Assembly (NCBI GenBank): GCA_031272885.1
Contig: JAISSX010000062.1
Span: forward strand, 1 to 63,355
Source of the DNA: Bifidobacteriaceae bacterium
GTDB lineage: Bacteria > Actinomycetota > Actinomycetes > Actinomycetales > WQXJ01
Reading direction: 5' to 3'
DNA length: 63,355 nucleotides
Below, in pieces: positions 42,077 to 48,287 of this stretch. Within the stretch, counting starts at the first letter, position 1; each line of letters starts with the position of its first letter. Position numbers and translations under genes: made by a program. The notes below the pieces were generated by a model. The model did no database searches. It saw nothing but the letters and a program-made list of their open reading frames with translations, and was not told the origin of the DNA.

Positions 42077-43084
42077 TTACGCCAACTCGAGCAGGTCAAC
42101 CACGAAGATCAGGGTCGAACCAGGCGGGATGGCCTCGTTGCTTTCGGAGTCGCCGTAGCCAAGGTCGGGCGGGATGACCAGCAGCACCTGGCTGCCCAGC
42201 TTCTGGCCGATCAGCCCGTCCAGGAAGCCCTGGATCAGGTAGCCGGTGGTCAAGGTGAACGTGACCGGTTCGCCCGTGGTCCAGGATGAATCGAACTGGG
42301 TGCCGTCCCACAGCCAGCCGGTGTACTGCAGCACCACGCTCTGGTCTGCCACCACTTCGGCGCCGTCGCCCTGGATCAGCACCTCGGTCACCAGTTCGGT
42401 GGGCGGATCGGTCGCAACCGTCGTGATGGACGGCTGGCCCGTGGTCTCATCCAATGTCACCGTGGGCAGGCTGGCGTCATCTTGCGGCATGGTGGTACCG
42501 CTGGCCCGCGTGGGCGGCACGACGGCGTCCGTCACGGTCAGGGCAATCACCTCGGACTCCGCCTCGCTGCCCTCTTCCGCCACGCCGTAGCCGATCAGCA
42601 TTTCGACACCCACCTGCTGGCCCACCAGGAAGGCGGACAAGGCATCGGTGGTGCTGGTGCCCTCCGCCGTCGGGTCGGCAATCACCGCCACGTTGGGACT
42701 TTGACCCTCGTCATAGGTTGAGAACGTGACTTCACCGGTGATGGTGTCGTAACCAGCCCACTGCACGGTGACGCGGTGGCCAGCGATGATGGTGGTGCCG
42801 TCGCCGGCCTTGACCACACGGTCAACCGTCACGCCATCGGGAAACTGGTAACCGGCTTCGAACTGCAGCGTGGGGGCGGTGGCGGCATCGGCCCCGGCCT
42901 GCCACTTGACACCATCAAGCCAGGTTTGGGCCTCGGCGATCGCCAGGTCCTCGGCCGAGACGGACGCACTGGCGGAGGCGCCGTCATCGACGGTCTTGCC
43001 GCCGGAGCAACCGGCCACCAGCAGGATGGCGAGGGCACCGCCGGTGGCGGCACGCAGCATCTTCTTCACAACTTCAGCTTTCAT
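42077..43084 (-). CDS. FKBP-type peptidyl-prolyl isomerase lipoprotein, two FKBP-like domains
   Basis: This 335-residue lipoprotein starts at ATG 43084; the lipobox VAGC has its Cys near residue 26. Domain 1 (~60-175) is FKBP-like but lacks the usual active-site aromatics (HRVTVQWAGYDTITGEV). Domain 2 (~225-335) is canonical, with VVLQYTGWLWDGTQFDSSW, GYLIQGFLDGLIGQKLGSQV and VIPPDLGYGD. It should fold proteins on the outer face of the membrane. A second, more divergent relative lies at 46929. Only C-terminal domain 2 is likely to be catalytic. Confidence 0.88.
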   Translation of the reverse strand: MKAEVVKKMLRAATGGALAILLVAGCSGGKTVDDGASASASVSAEDLAIAEAQTWLDGVKWQAGADAATAPTLQFEAGYQFPDGVTVDRVVKAGDGTTIIAGHRVTVQWAGYDTITGEVTFSTYDEGQSPNVAVIADPTAEGTSTTDALSAFLVGQQVGVEMLIGYGVAEEGSEAESEVIALTVTDAVVPPTRASGTTMPQDDASLPTVTLDETTGQPSITTVATDPPTELVTEVLIQGDGAEVVADQSVVLQYTGWLWDGTQFDSSWTTGEPVTFTLTTGYLIQGFLDGLIGQKLGSQVLLVIPPDLGYGDSESNEAIPPGSTLIFVVDLLELA

Positions 43085-43133
43085 TCTCGGGGCCCTACGC
43101 AACACGAACGTCAACCCAGCAACCTTACCGAAA

Positions 43134-43637
43134 TTACTGGGGCTCGGTTTCCAGCAGCCGTTCAGCCACACCGTCCGCCCATTCCTCAATGCTGGTGAAG
43201 TCGCGGTAGTCCCCCGCCTTGGCGCCGATCATCCGCATGACGGCCCGTTCCGTCGGCTTAAGGGTTTCCGGGTTCATGCGGCCGGGAAACAGCTTGGGGG
43301 CCGGCGCCGAGATGCGGAAGGCCAGGTCACGCACATCCTTCGGCACCGGGATCGAGTCGACTTCGCCGCTGTCCAGCGGCCCCGAGACGAACACCCAGGT
43401 GGCCAGGCCGGGCAGCAGGGCGTCCCAGCGGCCGGCAAAGGCGCCGATGGCGGGCAGCATGCGGTTGGCGTACAGGGCCGAACCGATCAAGACGGCGTCC
43501 ACCCCGTCCAGCGTGGTAACTGAGGCCGGTGACACCATCTCGGTGGCGATGCCGTGGGCGCGCAGCCGGCCGGCGATGGTCTCGGCAATCCCTAAAGTGG
43601 CACCATGCTTCGAGGCGACAGTGATGAGTGCCTTCAT
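43134..43637 (-). CDS. Flavodoxin-like protein (HemG/protoporphyrinogen oxidase type)
   Basis: This 167-residue protein starts at ATG 43637 (MKALITVASKHGATLGIAET). The P-loop for FMN phosphate reads SKHGATLGIAE, and later strands include DGVDAVLIGSALYANRML and LATWVFVSGPLDSGEV. Size and order match the flavodoxin_5 group that includes HemG and related oxidoreductases. Haem genes are not nearby, so a general flavoprotein role is all that can be stated. Confidence 0.82.
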   Translation of the reverse strand: MKALITVASKHGATLGIAETIAGRLRAHGIATEMVSPASVTTLDGVDAVLIGSALYANRMLPAIGAFAGRWDALLPGLATWVFVSGPLDSGEVDSIPVPKDVRDLAFRISAPAPKLFPGRMNPETLKPTERAVMRMIGAKAGDYRDFTSIEEWADGVAERLLETEPQ

Positions 43638-43894
43638 CGTGCCCCTTGCAGTGACCGAACGGGATGGGATTCTTGGTTGAGGGGCTGGGCGTTGCCCTGC
43701 TGGCACACTAACGCCGGGCTCATGGGACTCTCAATGTGACACGTCCCAGAATCACGCTGGAGGCCAAGGAAACTACTGGCCTTGTGACGCACCTAACACT
43801 TCCACCACGGCGGCCGGGCCCGCCGGGGCGGGCACCGGGGCCGCTGTAGCCGGTACCGGGGCCACCACTTCGCCAATCAGGGCCTGGTTGTGGT

Positions 43895-43900
43895 TAGATT
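43895..43900 (+). promoter_or_regulatory. Possible -10 element for a leaderless met leader transcript
   Basis: TAGATT fits the actinobacterial TANNNT -10 pattern and lies seven bases before GTG 43907. Transcription would therefore begin at or next to that start codon. No clear -35 is seen. Confidence 0.45.
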
Positions 43901-43906
43901 GCCCTC

Positions 43907-43984
43907 GTGACTTCAGCCGCCAACTCGCCGCGCGCCCTTCAGCGCGCCATGCGAATGTGCCGGCGAATGCCCCGCCGCGGCTGA
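43907..43984 (+). CDS. Possible Met/Cys leader peptide upstream of metNIQ
   Basis: A 25-codon frame starts at GTG 43907 and ends with TGA 43982-43984. It contains the cluster AMRMCRRM, with three internal Met and one Cys within eight codons. It lies about 100 bases before metN and directly after a -10-like TAGATT, so translation may be leaderless. Overlapping hairpins (43930-43947 and 44003-44016) share the sequence GCGCCCTT, so alternative pairings are possible. Leader peptides of this kind control sulfur amino-acid genes in other actinobacteria. Not shown experimentally. Confidence 0.45.
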   Translation: MTSAANSPRALQRAMRMCRRMPRRG

Positions 43985-44016
43985 GGCCTCATCCCTGACC
44001 GTGCGCCCTTGCGGCG
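43930..44016 (+). promoter_or_regulatory. Possible attenuator stem-loops before metN
   Basis: Hairpin 1 pairs GCGCGC (43930-43935) with GCGCGC (43942-43947). Hairpin 2 pairs GCGCC (44003-44007) with GGCGC (44012-44016). The left arm of one can also pair with the right arm of the other. This would suit switching by ribosome position on the leader frame. No T-run is present, so it may act on translation instead. Confidence 0.35.
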
Positions 44017-44082
44017 CGCCTCGCCCAGCCGCTGCCTGCCCAGACCTAACCCTTCTATTCGGCTGCCCGCGAGGAGAAACCA

Positions 44083-45105
44083 GTGATCGAGCTAATCGAC
44101 CTGCGCAAGGTCTTCCGCACGCCCACCGGCACCATCGCCGCCCTGGACGGCATCTCCCTGACGGTGCCCGATGGCGAGATCCACGGCATCGTCGGCCCGT
44201 CCGGAGCCGGCAAGTCGACCCTGATCCGGTGCCTCACGCTGCTGGAACGGCCCACCTCGGGCTCGGTGCTGATTGACGGCACGGACATGGCGGCGCTGCC
44301 GGCCCGGCAACTGCGCCAGGGCCGCCAGCGCATCGGCATGGTGTTCCAGGCCGGCAACCTGTTCGATTCCCGTAACGCCCTCAACAACGTGGCCTATCCC
44401 CTAGTGGTGACCGGCACCAAGAAGTCGGCCGCCAGGGCCCGGGCCCAAGAGCTGCTGGACCTGGTGGGCTTGGGCGACCGGGCCGATTCTTACCCGGCGC
44501 AACTGTCCGGCGGCCAGCGCCAGCGGGTCGGCATCGCCCGGGCCCTAGCCGGCAACCCGTCGGTGCTGCTGTGCGACGAACCCAGTTCGGCCCTGGACTG
44601 GGCCACCACCCGCCAGGTGCTGGAAGTCATCAAGCGCGTCAACCAGGCCATTGGCATCACCGTGCTGATCATCACCCACGAGATGGCCGTGGTACGCCAG
44701 GTCTGCGACTCGGTATCACTGCTGGCCAAAGGCAAGATTGAGCAGCGCGGCCCGCTGGGTGAAGTGGTGACGGACTACGGCTCGCAGTTGGCTCGGGATC
44801 TGATTCCGCTGGCCACCGCGCCCGTCGGCGCCGCCCGGGCGCAGTTGGAGGTTTCGTTCAGTTCGGCCGATTTCTCGATCCGCGAGGTGCTGCGCCTGTT
44901 GGCGGATCTCGGTTCCGATACCGCCATCGAGACCGGCACCATCGAAACCCTGGCCGGCCAGCGGGTGGGGCGCTTCCAGATCGACGTGGACCAAGACTCC
45001 CGCGAACGGGTGGTGGCTCAACTGCAGGCAGCCGGCCTGCACGTGGCCACCCCCGAAGCGCCGCCTGACCTACTGGCGGACCAGGGAGAGGAGGCCCAGC
45101 CGTGA
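44083..45105 (+). CDS. metN: Methionine ABC transporter ATPase MetN
   Basis: This 340-residue protein starts at GTG 44083 behind GAGGAG. The ATPase domain has Walker A GPSGAGKSTLI, signature LSGGQRQRVGIARA and Walker B VLLCDEPSSALD. The C-terminal NIL (ACT-like) domain (~265-335), with SSADFSIREVLRLLADLGSD, binds methionine for feedback inhibition and marks it as MetN and not a general amino-acid ATPase. First gene of the metNIQ operon. Confidence 0.95.
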   Translation: MIELIDLRKVFRTPTGTIAALDGISLTVPDGEIHGIVGPSGAGKSTLIRCLTLLERPTSGSVLIDGTDMAALPARQLRQGRQRIGMVFQAGNLFDSRNALNNVAYPLVVTGTKKSAARARAQELLDLVGLGDRADSYPAQLSGGQRQRVGIARALAGNPSVLLCDEPSSALDWATTRQVLEVIKRVNQAIGITVLIITHEMAVVRQVCDSVSLLAKGKIEQRGPLGEVVTDYGSQLARDLIPLATAPVGAARAQLEVSFSSADFSIREVLRLLADLGSDTAIETGTIETLAGQRVGRFQIDVDQDSRERVVAQLQAAGLHVATPEAPPDLLADQGEEAQP

Positions 45106-45836
45106 GCCTCGCCAGCCTCACCTCTGTCACCACCGTCGCCGCCGGCTGGGTGGCCGCCCGCGGCGACGGCACCTACTTCAACAACACCGCCTTCACCAGC
45201 CGCATCTGGGGCGCCATCGGCGGCACCCTGGGCCAAGTGGCCATCTCCACCCTGGTGGGCGTGCTGGTGGGCCTACCCATCGGCCTGGCCGTCTGGTACT
45301 GCGCCCCGGAGGGCCTGCACCCGGTGCGCTGGCTGCACCAGGTGCTCAACTTCGTCGTCGACTTGGGGCGGGCCATACCCTTCCTGATCCTGATGCTGCT
45401 GCTGCTGGGCTTTACCCGCTTCCTGCTCGGTTCGGCGCTGGGCTGGCAGGCCGGCGTGCCGCCGCTGGCCGTGGGCTGTATCCCGTTCTTTGCCCGGCTG
45501 GCTGAAAACGCCGTCCGGGGCGTGGCGGTAGGCAAGATCGAGGCCGCCCAGATGGCGGGGGCTTCCCGCTGGCAGATCGTCTGGGGCGTGGTGGTGCGCG
45601 AGGCCCTGCCGGGCCTGGTCGCCGCCGCCACCGTCACCTTCATCACCCTGATCGGCTACTCGATGATCACCGGCACCATCGGCGCCGGCGGCCTGGGTGA
45701 CCTGGTTTACAACTGGGGCTATACACGGAATCAACCGGACATTTTCGTCATGGTTGTGGTACTTGTTCTGATCCTGGTTGAAGTTGTCCAACTGATCGGC
45801 GATTTCCTCGTCCGGAAGCTGGATCACACCCGTTGA
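45102..45836 (+). CDS. metI: Methionine ABC transporter permease MetI
   Basis: This 244-residue permease begins at GTG 45102, overlapping the metN stop by four bases. It has five membrane segments, and the EAA loop reads IEAAQMAGASRWQIVWGVVV. The GYSMITGTIGAGGLGDLVYN stretch after it is diagnostic for MetI. It forms the methionine importer with MetN and MetQ. Confidence 0.95.
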   Translation: MSLASLTSVTTVAAGWVAARGDGTYFNNTAFTSRIWGAIGGTLGQVAISTLVGVLVGLPIGLAVWYCAPEGLHPVRWLHQVLNFVVDLGRAIPFLILMLLLLGFTRFLLGSALGWQAGVPPLAVGCIPFFARLAENAVRGVAVGKIEAAQMAGASRWQIVWGVVVREALPGLVAAATVTFITLIGYSMITGTIGAGGLGDLVYNWGYTRNQPDIFVMVVVLVLILVEVVQLIGDFLVRKLDHTR

Positions 45837-45893: not shown

Positions 45894-46820
45894 ATGATCA
45901 TGCGTAAGACACTCAGCGTGGTCGCCCTTGCCGCGGCCACTGCACTAGCCATGGCCGGTTGCGGCGGAGGCGACAACACCACTGAGGAGACGGGCGGCGG
46001 CGCGTCAACCACAGGCGCCCAAACCACCGACACGGCCACCACCGAGGCGCCGGAAGAAACCACCGAAGCGCCGGAGGAAACCACCCCGGCAGCCGAAGTG
46101 GTCACCCTCAAGGTGGGCGTGTCCCCAGTACCGCAGGGCGACATCCTGCAGTTCATCCAGGACAACCTGGCGGCCGAGGCCGGCCTGAACCTCGACATCA
46201 TCGAGTTCCAGGATTACATCCTGCCCAACACGGCCCTGAATGATGGCGACCTGGACGGCAACTACTTCCAGCACCAGCCCTACCTGGATTCCCAAGTGGA
46301 AGAGTACGGCTACGACTTCTACGCCTTCCCGGGCGTGCACATCGAGCCGTTGGGTCTCTACGCCGGCAAGTCCGCCTCCCTGGATGACATTCCCGATGGC
46401 GCCGTCATCGGCGTGTCGAACGACCCCGCCAACCAGGCTCGCGGCCTGAAGCTGCTGGAATCGGCCGGCCTGTTCACGCTGTCCACCCAGGACAACCCCA
46501 CCATCGACGATCTGGCGGACAACCCGCACAACATCCAACTGATCCAGGTGGAGCCGAAGCTGCTGGCCACCAACCTGCAGGACTTCGACTATGCGGTCAT
46601 CAACGGCAACTACGCCATCGACGCCGGCCTCAGCCCGGCCAACGACGCCTTGGTGCTGGAGTCCGGTGAAAACAACCCGTACGCCAACTTCCTGGTGGTA
46701 CGCAGCGCCGACAAGGACAATCCGGCCCTGGTCAAGCTGAACGAACTGCTGCACAGCCCTGAGGTGAAGCAGTTCATCACTGAATCCTGGTCCGACGGCT
46801 CGGTGATCGCGGCCTTCTAG
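45894..46820 (+). CDS. metQ: Methionine-binding lipoprotein MetQ
   Basis: This 308-residue lipoprotein (ATG 45894; ATG 45900 also possible) has the lipobox AMAGC and a Thr/Glu-rich linker containing TTEAPEETTEAPEETT, a direct repeat. The NlpA/MetQ core includes VTLKVGVSPVPQGDILQFIQ, GNYFQHQPYLDSQVEEYGYD and YAVINGNYAIDAGLSPANDA. It captures methionine outside the cell for MetNI. The operon ends at a strong intrinsic terminator (46845-46894). Confidence 0.96.
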   Translation: MIMRKTLSVVALAAATALAMAGCGGGDNTTEETGGGASTTGAQTTDTATTEAPEETTEAPEETTPAAEVVTLKVGVSPVPQGDILQFIQDNLAAEAGLNLDIIEFQDYILPNTALNDGDLDGNYFQHQPYLDSQVEEYGYDFYAFPGVHIEPLGLYAGKSASLDDIPDGAVIGVSNDPANQARGLKLLESAGLFTLSTQDNPTIDDLADNPHNIQLIQVEPKLLATNLQDFDYAVINGNYAIDAGLSPANDALVLESGENNPYANFLVVRSADKDNPALVKLNELLHSPEVKQFITESWSDGSVIAAF

Positions 46821-46894: not shown

Positions 46895-46928
46895 GCTGGG
46901 CGGATGACCTTACTTGTATGGAGTTGAC

Positions 46929-48287
46929 GTGCGTTCACCTAAAGCCTTCTTGAAGACGGCAGCCTGGGCGCTGGGCGCCTGCCTGGCCCTGACCATGGCC
47001 GGTTGCTCCGGCGGCGATGACACAGCCACCGCCTCGGCCAGCCCGTTGCCGTCCGAAGCCATCGGCCTCACTGTCGATGCCGCCAGCCTGCCCACCGTGA
47101 CGGGTGAGATGGGCTTCGCGCCCACCATCACCTACCCGCTGAAGCCGGGCGAGTCCTCACCTACCCCCACGCCAACTCCCACCGAAACCACCGAGGCCAC
47201 CGACGGAGCTGAGGAATCCGAGGCGCCATCGCCCTACGTTGACCCGCCCTCCACCCTGCAGATTGAAGTGCTGCAGGCCGGCGGTGACGAGAAGGTCCAA
47301 GCCGATTCGGTGGTGGTGGTCGACTATGTGGCCTACAAGTGGGGCGTCCTGGAACCGATCGCCGCTGGCTCTTTCGGCACCGCCAACCCCAGCGTCATGC
47401 TGGTGCAGGCTGATGTCACCTACCCGGCGTTGGCCCGCTCCCTGGTGGGCCAGGCCATCGGTTCGCGCATTATGTCGGTTGTCCCTCCGGCCGAGGGCGC
47501 CCTCAACACGGCCCTCGGGGCCGAGGCCGGCGACACCGTGGTGCTGGTGTTCGACATCTATAAGCAGTATCCGATCGACATCCAGGCCCAGGCCGATGCC
47601 ACTCCCACCGGCAACAAGGTTTCGGTCACCGTTGAAGGCGACCTGGGCGGCCCGGCCACCATCACGGTGCCCGGCGGCCTGGCTGCCCCCGAGAAGGTCA
47701 CCACCACCGTCATCGCCGAAGGCACCGGCCCGGTGGTCGAAGACGGCAACCTGATTCTGTATCACTACGCCGCGGTGGACTGGAGCAACGGCGACGGCGG
47801 CTCGTCTTGGGTGGACGGCTTCGGGCCCTCCAGCGCCACCATCTCGGCCGGCTATTCCGACACCGTCTACGCCCTCAGCGGCCTGGTGGGCATCAAGGCC
47901 GGCTCCCGCGTGGTGATCGAACTGCCCGGCCAGACGGACTCCTATCTGGCCGAAGCCGTGGTGGTGGACATCATCGCCATCGTCACCCGGTCCGATGACG
48001 TCCAAGCAGCCATCGACGCCAAGGCCGAGGCCGATGCCGCGGCGGCGGAAGAGGCGGCCGCGGCGGAAGAGGCGGCGGCCGCCGAAGAAGAGGCCGCCAC
48101 CGACGCCGAGGACGCCTCGACCGAGGAAGAGACTGCCTCGACGGAGGCTGACGAAGAGGCCACCGAAACACCCACCGACGAGGCGACCGGTGACCAGGAA
48201 GAGCCGGCCACCGAAACCGAAGACACGACATCGGGCAGCGACGAAGAGACCCCAGAAGCCGACACCGAGCAAACCACTGACCAATAG
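46929..48287 (+). CDS. Divergent FKBP-like lipoprotein with a long acidic tail
   Basis: This 452-residue protein starts at GTG 46929 with GGAG six bases upstream; TTG 46914 is less likely. The lipobox is MAGC. A Pro/Thr linker (SPTPTPTPTETTEAT) leads to two FKBP-like domains: ~105-205 with VVVVDYVAYKWGVLEPIAAG, and ~235-345 with LILYHYAAVDWSNGDGGSSW and GLVGIKAGSRVVIELPGQTD. Both lack several isomerase residues. The last ~105 residues are Ala/Glu/Thr-rich (AAAEEAAAAEEAAAAEEE), strongly acidic and probably disordered. Possibly a binding or chaperone protein and not an active isomerase. Confidence 0.75.
   Translation: MRSPKAFLKTAAWALGACLALTMAGCSGGDDTATASASPLPSEAIGLTVDAASLPTVTGEMGFAPTITYPLKPGESSPTPTPTPTETTEATDGAEESEAPSPYVDPPSTLQIEVLQAGGDEKVQADSVVVVDYVAYKWGVLEPIAAGSFGTANPSVMLVQADVTYPALARSLVGQAIGSRIMSVVPPAEGALNTALGAEAGDTVVLVFDIYKQYPIDIQAQADATPTGNKVSVTVEGDLGGPATITVPGGLAAPEKVTTTVIAEGTGPVVEDGNLILYHYAAVDWSNGDGGSSWVDGFGPSSATISAGYSDTVYALSGLVGIKAGSRVVIELPGQTDSYLAEAVVVDIIAIVTRSDDVQAAIDAKAEADAAAAEEAAAAEEAAAAEEEAATDAEDASTEEETASTEADEEATETPTDEATGDQEEPATETEDTTSGSDEETPEADTEQTTDQ

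Follow-up and report, generated by a model that had tools for sequence, protein, structure and literature searches.

A probable leaderless, methionine-responsive leader peptide of the Streptomyces lividans metL type upstream of metNIQ in a Bifidobacteriaceae bacterium

Here, we report a short open reading frame (uORF) upstream of the methionine transport operon metN-metI-metQ of a Bifidobacteriaceae bacterium, which is probably a leaderless, methionine-responsive ribosome-stalling attenuator of the S. lividans metL type. The window, i.e., the whole stretch of DNA that we analysed, is 63,355 nucleotides long. Transcription would start at or next to GTG 43907, and the ribosome would begin the peptide at the 5' end of the message without a Shine-Dalgarno sequence. 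We infer that when charged Met-tRNA, and perhaps Cys-tRNA too, is short, the ribosome would stall shortly before the end of the frame, at CGA-AUG, and alter the behaviour of the downstream leader RNA, and metNIQ would be expressed; when methionine is plentiful, the ribosome would reach the stop codon and metNIQ would be turned down. The elements of the promoter, the ORF and the operon are as follows.

43894 to 43899, forward strand: TTAGAT, a -10-like hexamer 7 nt ahead of the GTG (TAGATT if shifted by one base), aligning with relatives
43907 to 43984, forward strand: metL-like leader peptide ORF of the leaderless type, VTSAANSPRALQRAMRMCRRMPRRG plus TGA, with a homologous end in relatives
43952 to 43969, forward strand: putative sensor core CGA-ATG-TGC-CGG-CGA-ATG (Arg-Met-Cys-Arg-Arg-Met), with CGA before Met in relatives too
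44083 to 45105, forward strand: metN, methionine ABC transporter ATPase (best NCBIfam match TIGR02314, 294.9 bits, below the curated cut-off of 499.7)
45102 to 45836, forward strand: metI, permease (best match NF008049 MetI, 172 bits, below the cut-off of 212)
45894 to 46820, forward strand: metQ, substrate-binding lipoprotein (best matches NF008285 and TIGR00363, both below their cut-offs)

A second look at the sequence placed the 25-codon frame with its Met/Cys cluster, the -10 element and metN all where the sequence-only reading had put them. The frame runs from GTG 43907 through the last sense codon (43979–43981) to TGA 43982–43984 and lies 98 nt ahead of metN, which starts with GTG 44083. 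Two -10 registers are available, TTAGAT and TAGATT (43895–43900), 6–7 nt before the GTG, of which TTAGAT is the one that aligns with the hexamers of the relatives. The peptide has one Cys and no run of consecutive Cys codons, and NCBIfam peptide models gave no match to it. When both strands of the 63-kb window were scanned for ORFs of 8–45 codons starting with ATG or GTG 6–7 nt after T[AT]NNNT, 22 ORF instances were obtained, among which the metN uORF enters twice (one entry per -10 register), and it is the only one with at least three Met/Cys in the last 12 codons. There are two copies of the string CGAATG-N0-12-CGAATG in the 2.95-Mb genome, of which only the one at the metN uORF reads in frame as Arg-Met; in-frame CGA-ATG pairs 12 nt apart are unique to this uORF, and further copies of the leader element were not found in the genome.

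Please note that the names metN, metI and metQ rest on the best NCBIfam match and gene order, all three scores being below the curated cut-offs. Two lipoprotein-like genes, FKBP-like by eye, flank the region (42077–43189 on the reverse strand and 46914–48287 on the forward strand). MetH is encoded in the same genome (G000:C70:21170-24517) above its curated cut-off, so that of methionine synthesis at least the final, B12-dependent step is present; MetE was not detectable in this genome. In termite-gut Bifidobacteriaceae, MetQ is encoded in most genera (PMC11707648), and the organism of the window may come from a termite gut.

The end of the peptide, rather than its beginning, is what the relatives share. 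Our family set comprises 12 genomes with a metN ortholog, that of the window included, and a leaderless-type ORF stands at the same place before metN in nine of them. The peptides are MYSHATASSRLTAAQRMCRRMPQRG, VRLTTDSARPQGARRMCARMPRRG, VHQRSRVSMSIPQAVMPARMPRRG, VSFTQRSGLTPVTGACRMCWRRMCPRG, VSSALHPWCASTVEAHRMCVCRMCLRG, VSICARMCSRG, VSLRAHCLTPAWPAGPDGARMSARML, the degenerate VFLGVIPFERLAPTPRMSRRD and VTSAANSPRALQRAMRMCRRMPRRG of the window; they have a conserved end, R-M-C-x-R-M-[P/C]-x-R-G-stop, and unrelated N-termini. The hexamer GGCTGA at the end of the uORF is conserved in 7/9, and all nine have a -10 hexamer (TTAGAT, TTTACT, TAATCT, TAGCCT, TAACCT, TTCAAT or TAGGGT) 6–7 nt ahead of the start codon. 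Whether close relatives keep the Met/Cys cluster had been set beforehand as a test of the sequence-only reading; the cluster, the -10 spacing and the position are kept in nine of the 12 family members and in Streptomyces, and the interpretation thus survives. The other three loci (L009, L010, L015) have no such leader ORF before metN, indicating that the leader ORF is dispensable. These three keep a -10-like site near metN with the ORF missing, i.e., they look like natural deletions of the attenuator.

Outside the family, a homologous leader ORF precedes metN in all 21 Streptomyces examined, where "Streptomyces" is the reading that we gave to genus g82 from the near-identity of its peptide to S. 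lividans metL. The typical pattern is TTTACT-N6/7-ATG...GARCMCRMCAF-stop. This promoter-plus-ORF signature was found once per genome, only upstream of metN, in seven of the eight Streptomyces genomes scanned, with no control match; the eighth (G241) carries a variant ORF which the scan pattern misses. Directly after the uORF stop, the Streptomyces loci L050–L095 have a conserved hairpin, CUCGC-GCCCCGAA-GCGAG, plus GGGCCCC, with one apparent compensatory change (CCCGC/GCGGG in L057). Variants of the metN uORF also occur in family f35 and as single cases elsewhere. Leaderless-type ORFs before metN at four loci (L150, L151, L154, L155) have kept Cys codons (GGCCRGAS, RCRGCCCRTSA, GGRCRAHF) and lost the Met codon, possibly a switch of the sensed amino acid.

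What stays most strikingly constant is the codon before Met, not the number of Met codons. Arg directly before Met is encoded by CGA in 15/15 cases in the family and 16/16 in Streptomyces (16 loci counted), whereas none of the remaining Arg codons of the leader ORFs is CGA (0/26 and 0/45, 0/71 together); the background share of CGA among Arg codons of the metN genes is 6.8% in the family and 1.8% in Streptomyces, and for all these codon and composition statistics the sequences are related, not independent. Around the window uORF, CGA accounts for 0/119 Arg codons in seven genes. If any CGN is allowed before ATG near the ORF end, the sense strand gives 34 CGA and no other codon, and the antisense control gives one match. 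Two CGT exceptions appeared in a later set from f35. The window uORF also has CGA-ATG within a few codons of its stop, the feature taken from the 21 Streptomyces loci, and its two CGAATG copies, like those of its relatives, are spaced by 12 or 15 nt, i.e., multiples of three. The Arg-Met codon rule, CGA before the sensing ATG, is new here and, in the sequences compared, almost always holds; it is a sharp and testable rule at the codon level which a plain count of sensor codons would not predict.

What this codon does may lie in its decoding. CGA is read slowly or poorly in a Salmonella his leader assay (PMC4046918), and since CGA is invariant in the family where pairing is not above shuffles, a decoding role is favoured over RNA pairing. 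It is conceivable, and we put it forward tentatively, that CGA is a working part of the sensor, i.e., tRNA-Arg(ICG), bound through a weak I-A pair while in the P site, would make the ribosome unusually sensitive to a shortage of Met-tRNA at the next codon. If this is true, CGA-AUG would be a codon-pair starvation sensor common to distant actinobacteria, beyond a cluster of sensing codons. In Streptomyces, RNA pairing could be part of the constraint on CGA; there the sensor-codon segment UGUCGA-AU-GUGCGC complements GCGCAC-UCGACA, about 17–30 nt before metN and just ahead of the ribosome-binding site (RBS), with an alifold z of -3.3 and per-sequence p mostly 0.02–0.09.

The RNA downstream of the sensor and a site upstream of the promoter contain the following further elements.

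43783 to 43798, forward strand: CRP/GlxR-like palindrome TGTGACGCACCTAACA, a degenerate copy with 9 of 10 matches, whose centre lies some 116 nt ahead of the putative start site
43930 to 43947, forward strand: first GCGCCCTT hairpin in the minimum-energy fold
43973 to 43986, forward strand: uORF end and stop, CGCCGCGGCTGAGG, predicted to pair either with the ORF start (43907–43920) or with 44023–44036
43985 to 44082, forward strand: C-rich, G-poor spacer from the uORF stop to metN (43 C and 25 G in 98 nt), a candidate Rho-loading region
44001 to 44020 (about), forward strand: second, local GCGCCCTT hairpin, helix 44001–44007 with 44013–44019
44020 to 44073, forward strand: long hairpin in the minimum-energy fold (44020–44031 with 44060–44073), reaching the GAGGAG Shine-Dalgarno (44071–44076)

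The window leader folds better than its shuffles (z -2.6). Alternative GCGCCCTT hairpins before metN had been proposed: both hairpins are real, but since they co-form in one minimum-energy fold they are not alternatives to each other, and the pair is not the conserved part of the leader. RNAalifold found no conserved fold among the family leaders, nor is the hairpin 44020–44073 conserved as a switch in the relatives. Over the set, the uORF end pairs better with the spacer than shuffled sequences do (combined p about 1e-4 by Fisher's method), which is only suggestive because the segment was picked after inspection and the sequences are related. In the window, the alternative pairings of the uORF end and the hairpin 44020–44073 make up a four-segment arrangement that looks like a classical attenuator, with weak support in the relatives. 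No intrinsic terminator (hairpin plus U-tract) was found on the metN strand, the sole site detected being on the opposite strand. As to the composition of the spacer, a skew as strong is seen in about 3% of the stretches of the same length in the window when both strands are counted, and the C-over-G excess of the 150 nt preceding metN is 0.147 in loci with the uORF vs 0.032 in those without (the loci being related).

Given the lack of an intrinsic terminator, the lack of consistent unmasking of the Shine-Dalgarno, the C-rich and G-poor spacer and the stronger skew in loci with the uORF, we favour Rho-dependent termination in the spacer, set by the position of the ribosome, as the output. Its main rival is a translational output, in which the metN RBS is masked by the sensor region or leader until a ribosome stalls and exposes it, a mechanism that has been put forward for the poly-cysteine leaders of mycobacteria; a translation-attenuation model is summarised and cited for mycobacterial cysteine genes (PMC13236596). 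The Streptomyces pairing just before the RBS and the reach of the predicted window hairpin into the Shine-Dalgarno speak for it, and yet pairing of sensor to RBS in the window's own family is no better than chance (not above shuffles, Fisher p 0.41), and footprint-constrained folding of 30 leaders gave no consistent change in accessibility between the stall and stop states, and we hold a translational output to be the less likely of the two.

The amino acid that is sensed is a separate matter. Cys often stands beside Met, and some f35 uORFs keep Cys without Met (e.g., GGCCRGAS and GGRCRAHF), from which it follows that the sensed amino acid may vary; however, Met is present in 9/9 family peptide ends, two of which (L017 and L011) lack Cys altogether, and the last Met is kept in 21/21 Streptomyces peptides with a variable adjacent Cys, so that an ORF sensing cysteine, or sulfur amino acids generally, rather than methionine seems rather improbable to us. 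That the ORF arose by chance and metNIQ answers only to a DNA-binding regulator, e.g., a CRP-like protein at the upstream palindrome, is very unlikely, even though a TGTGA-N6-TCACA-like site lies upstream of the metN promoter in 10/12 family loci at 9–10 of 10 matches, those without the leader ORF included, because the ORF end is conserved in its coding register, the constraint is specific to the CGA codon, the CGAATG spacing is a multiple of three and a Streptomyces homologue exists. Riboswitches commonly control methionine genes, and we searched for a SAM or other known riboswitch in the leader; with Rfam covariance models, neither the window nor any of 14 metN loci had a family that reached the gathering score, and such a riboswitch is hardly to be expected here.

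Compared with the classical trp and his attenuators, the leader reported here likewise has a short ORF that carries the sensor codons, with competing pairings after it, and differs in lacking a U-tract terminator and in its leaderless-type start. Mycobacteria have leaderless short ORFs with poly-cysteine runs ahead of sulfur amino-acid genes, reportedly described by Canestrari et al. in 2020; these, too, are reported to have sulfur amino-acid codons close to the stop and no obvious terminator, whereas the conserved residue here is Met and there is no Cys run. As to a structure that masks the RBS, the predicted hairpin of the window reaches the Shine-Dalgarno, and our folding showed no consistent switch there. 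Cys leader peptides have been predicted in Mycobacterium, Propionibacterium acnes and Bifidobacterium longum before cys/cbs genes, and the same survey of Actinobacteria found methionine operons to have no conserved RNA regulatory structure ahead of them (PMC1262725); those leaders are also short ORFs whose sulfur amino-acid codons lie close to the stop, a conserved terminator is absent and a role of Rho is suspected, in contrast to which ours precedes metN.

The closest system is metL of S. lividans TK24 (SLIV_29928, peptide MSTTSDRTPATEATTTPGARCMCRRMCAF), which is leaderless by RNA-seq, lies upstream of metNIQ and has no typical terminator (PMC8079986). With this mapped leaderless homologue, together with the conservation described above, the proposal of a Met/Cys leader peptide for metNIQ is supported, while the idea that a methionine-transport case would be unprecedented falls to the same published precedent; the metN leader thus belongs to the already known metL kind. 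Both leader peptides sit directly upstream of metNIQ with a C-terminal Met/Cys cluster having MCRRM in common, and both are followed by hairpins without a typical intrinsic terminator; a leaderless start is mapped there, and here a -10 element 6–7 nt before the start codon would fit one. They differ in the N-terminus and in leader RNA structures, which are unrelated, and the 98-nt spacer of the window compares with about 160–245 nt in most Streptomyces examined, whose GCCCCGAA-loop hairpin is absent from the window leader. What was a single-species annotation in S. lividans thereby becomes, as these comparisons suggest, a leader for sulfur amino acids that is conserved in several families of actinobacteria, uncultured bacteria of the Bifidobacteriaceae type among them.
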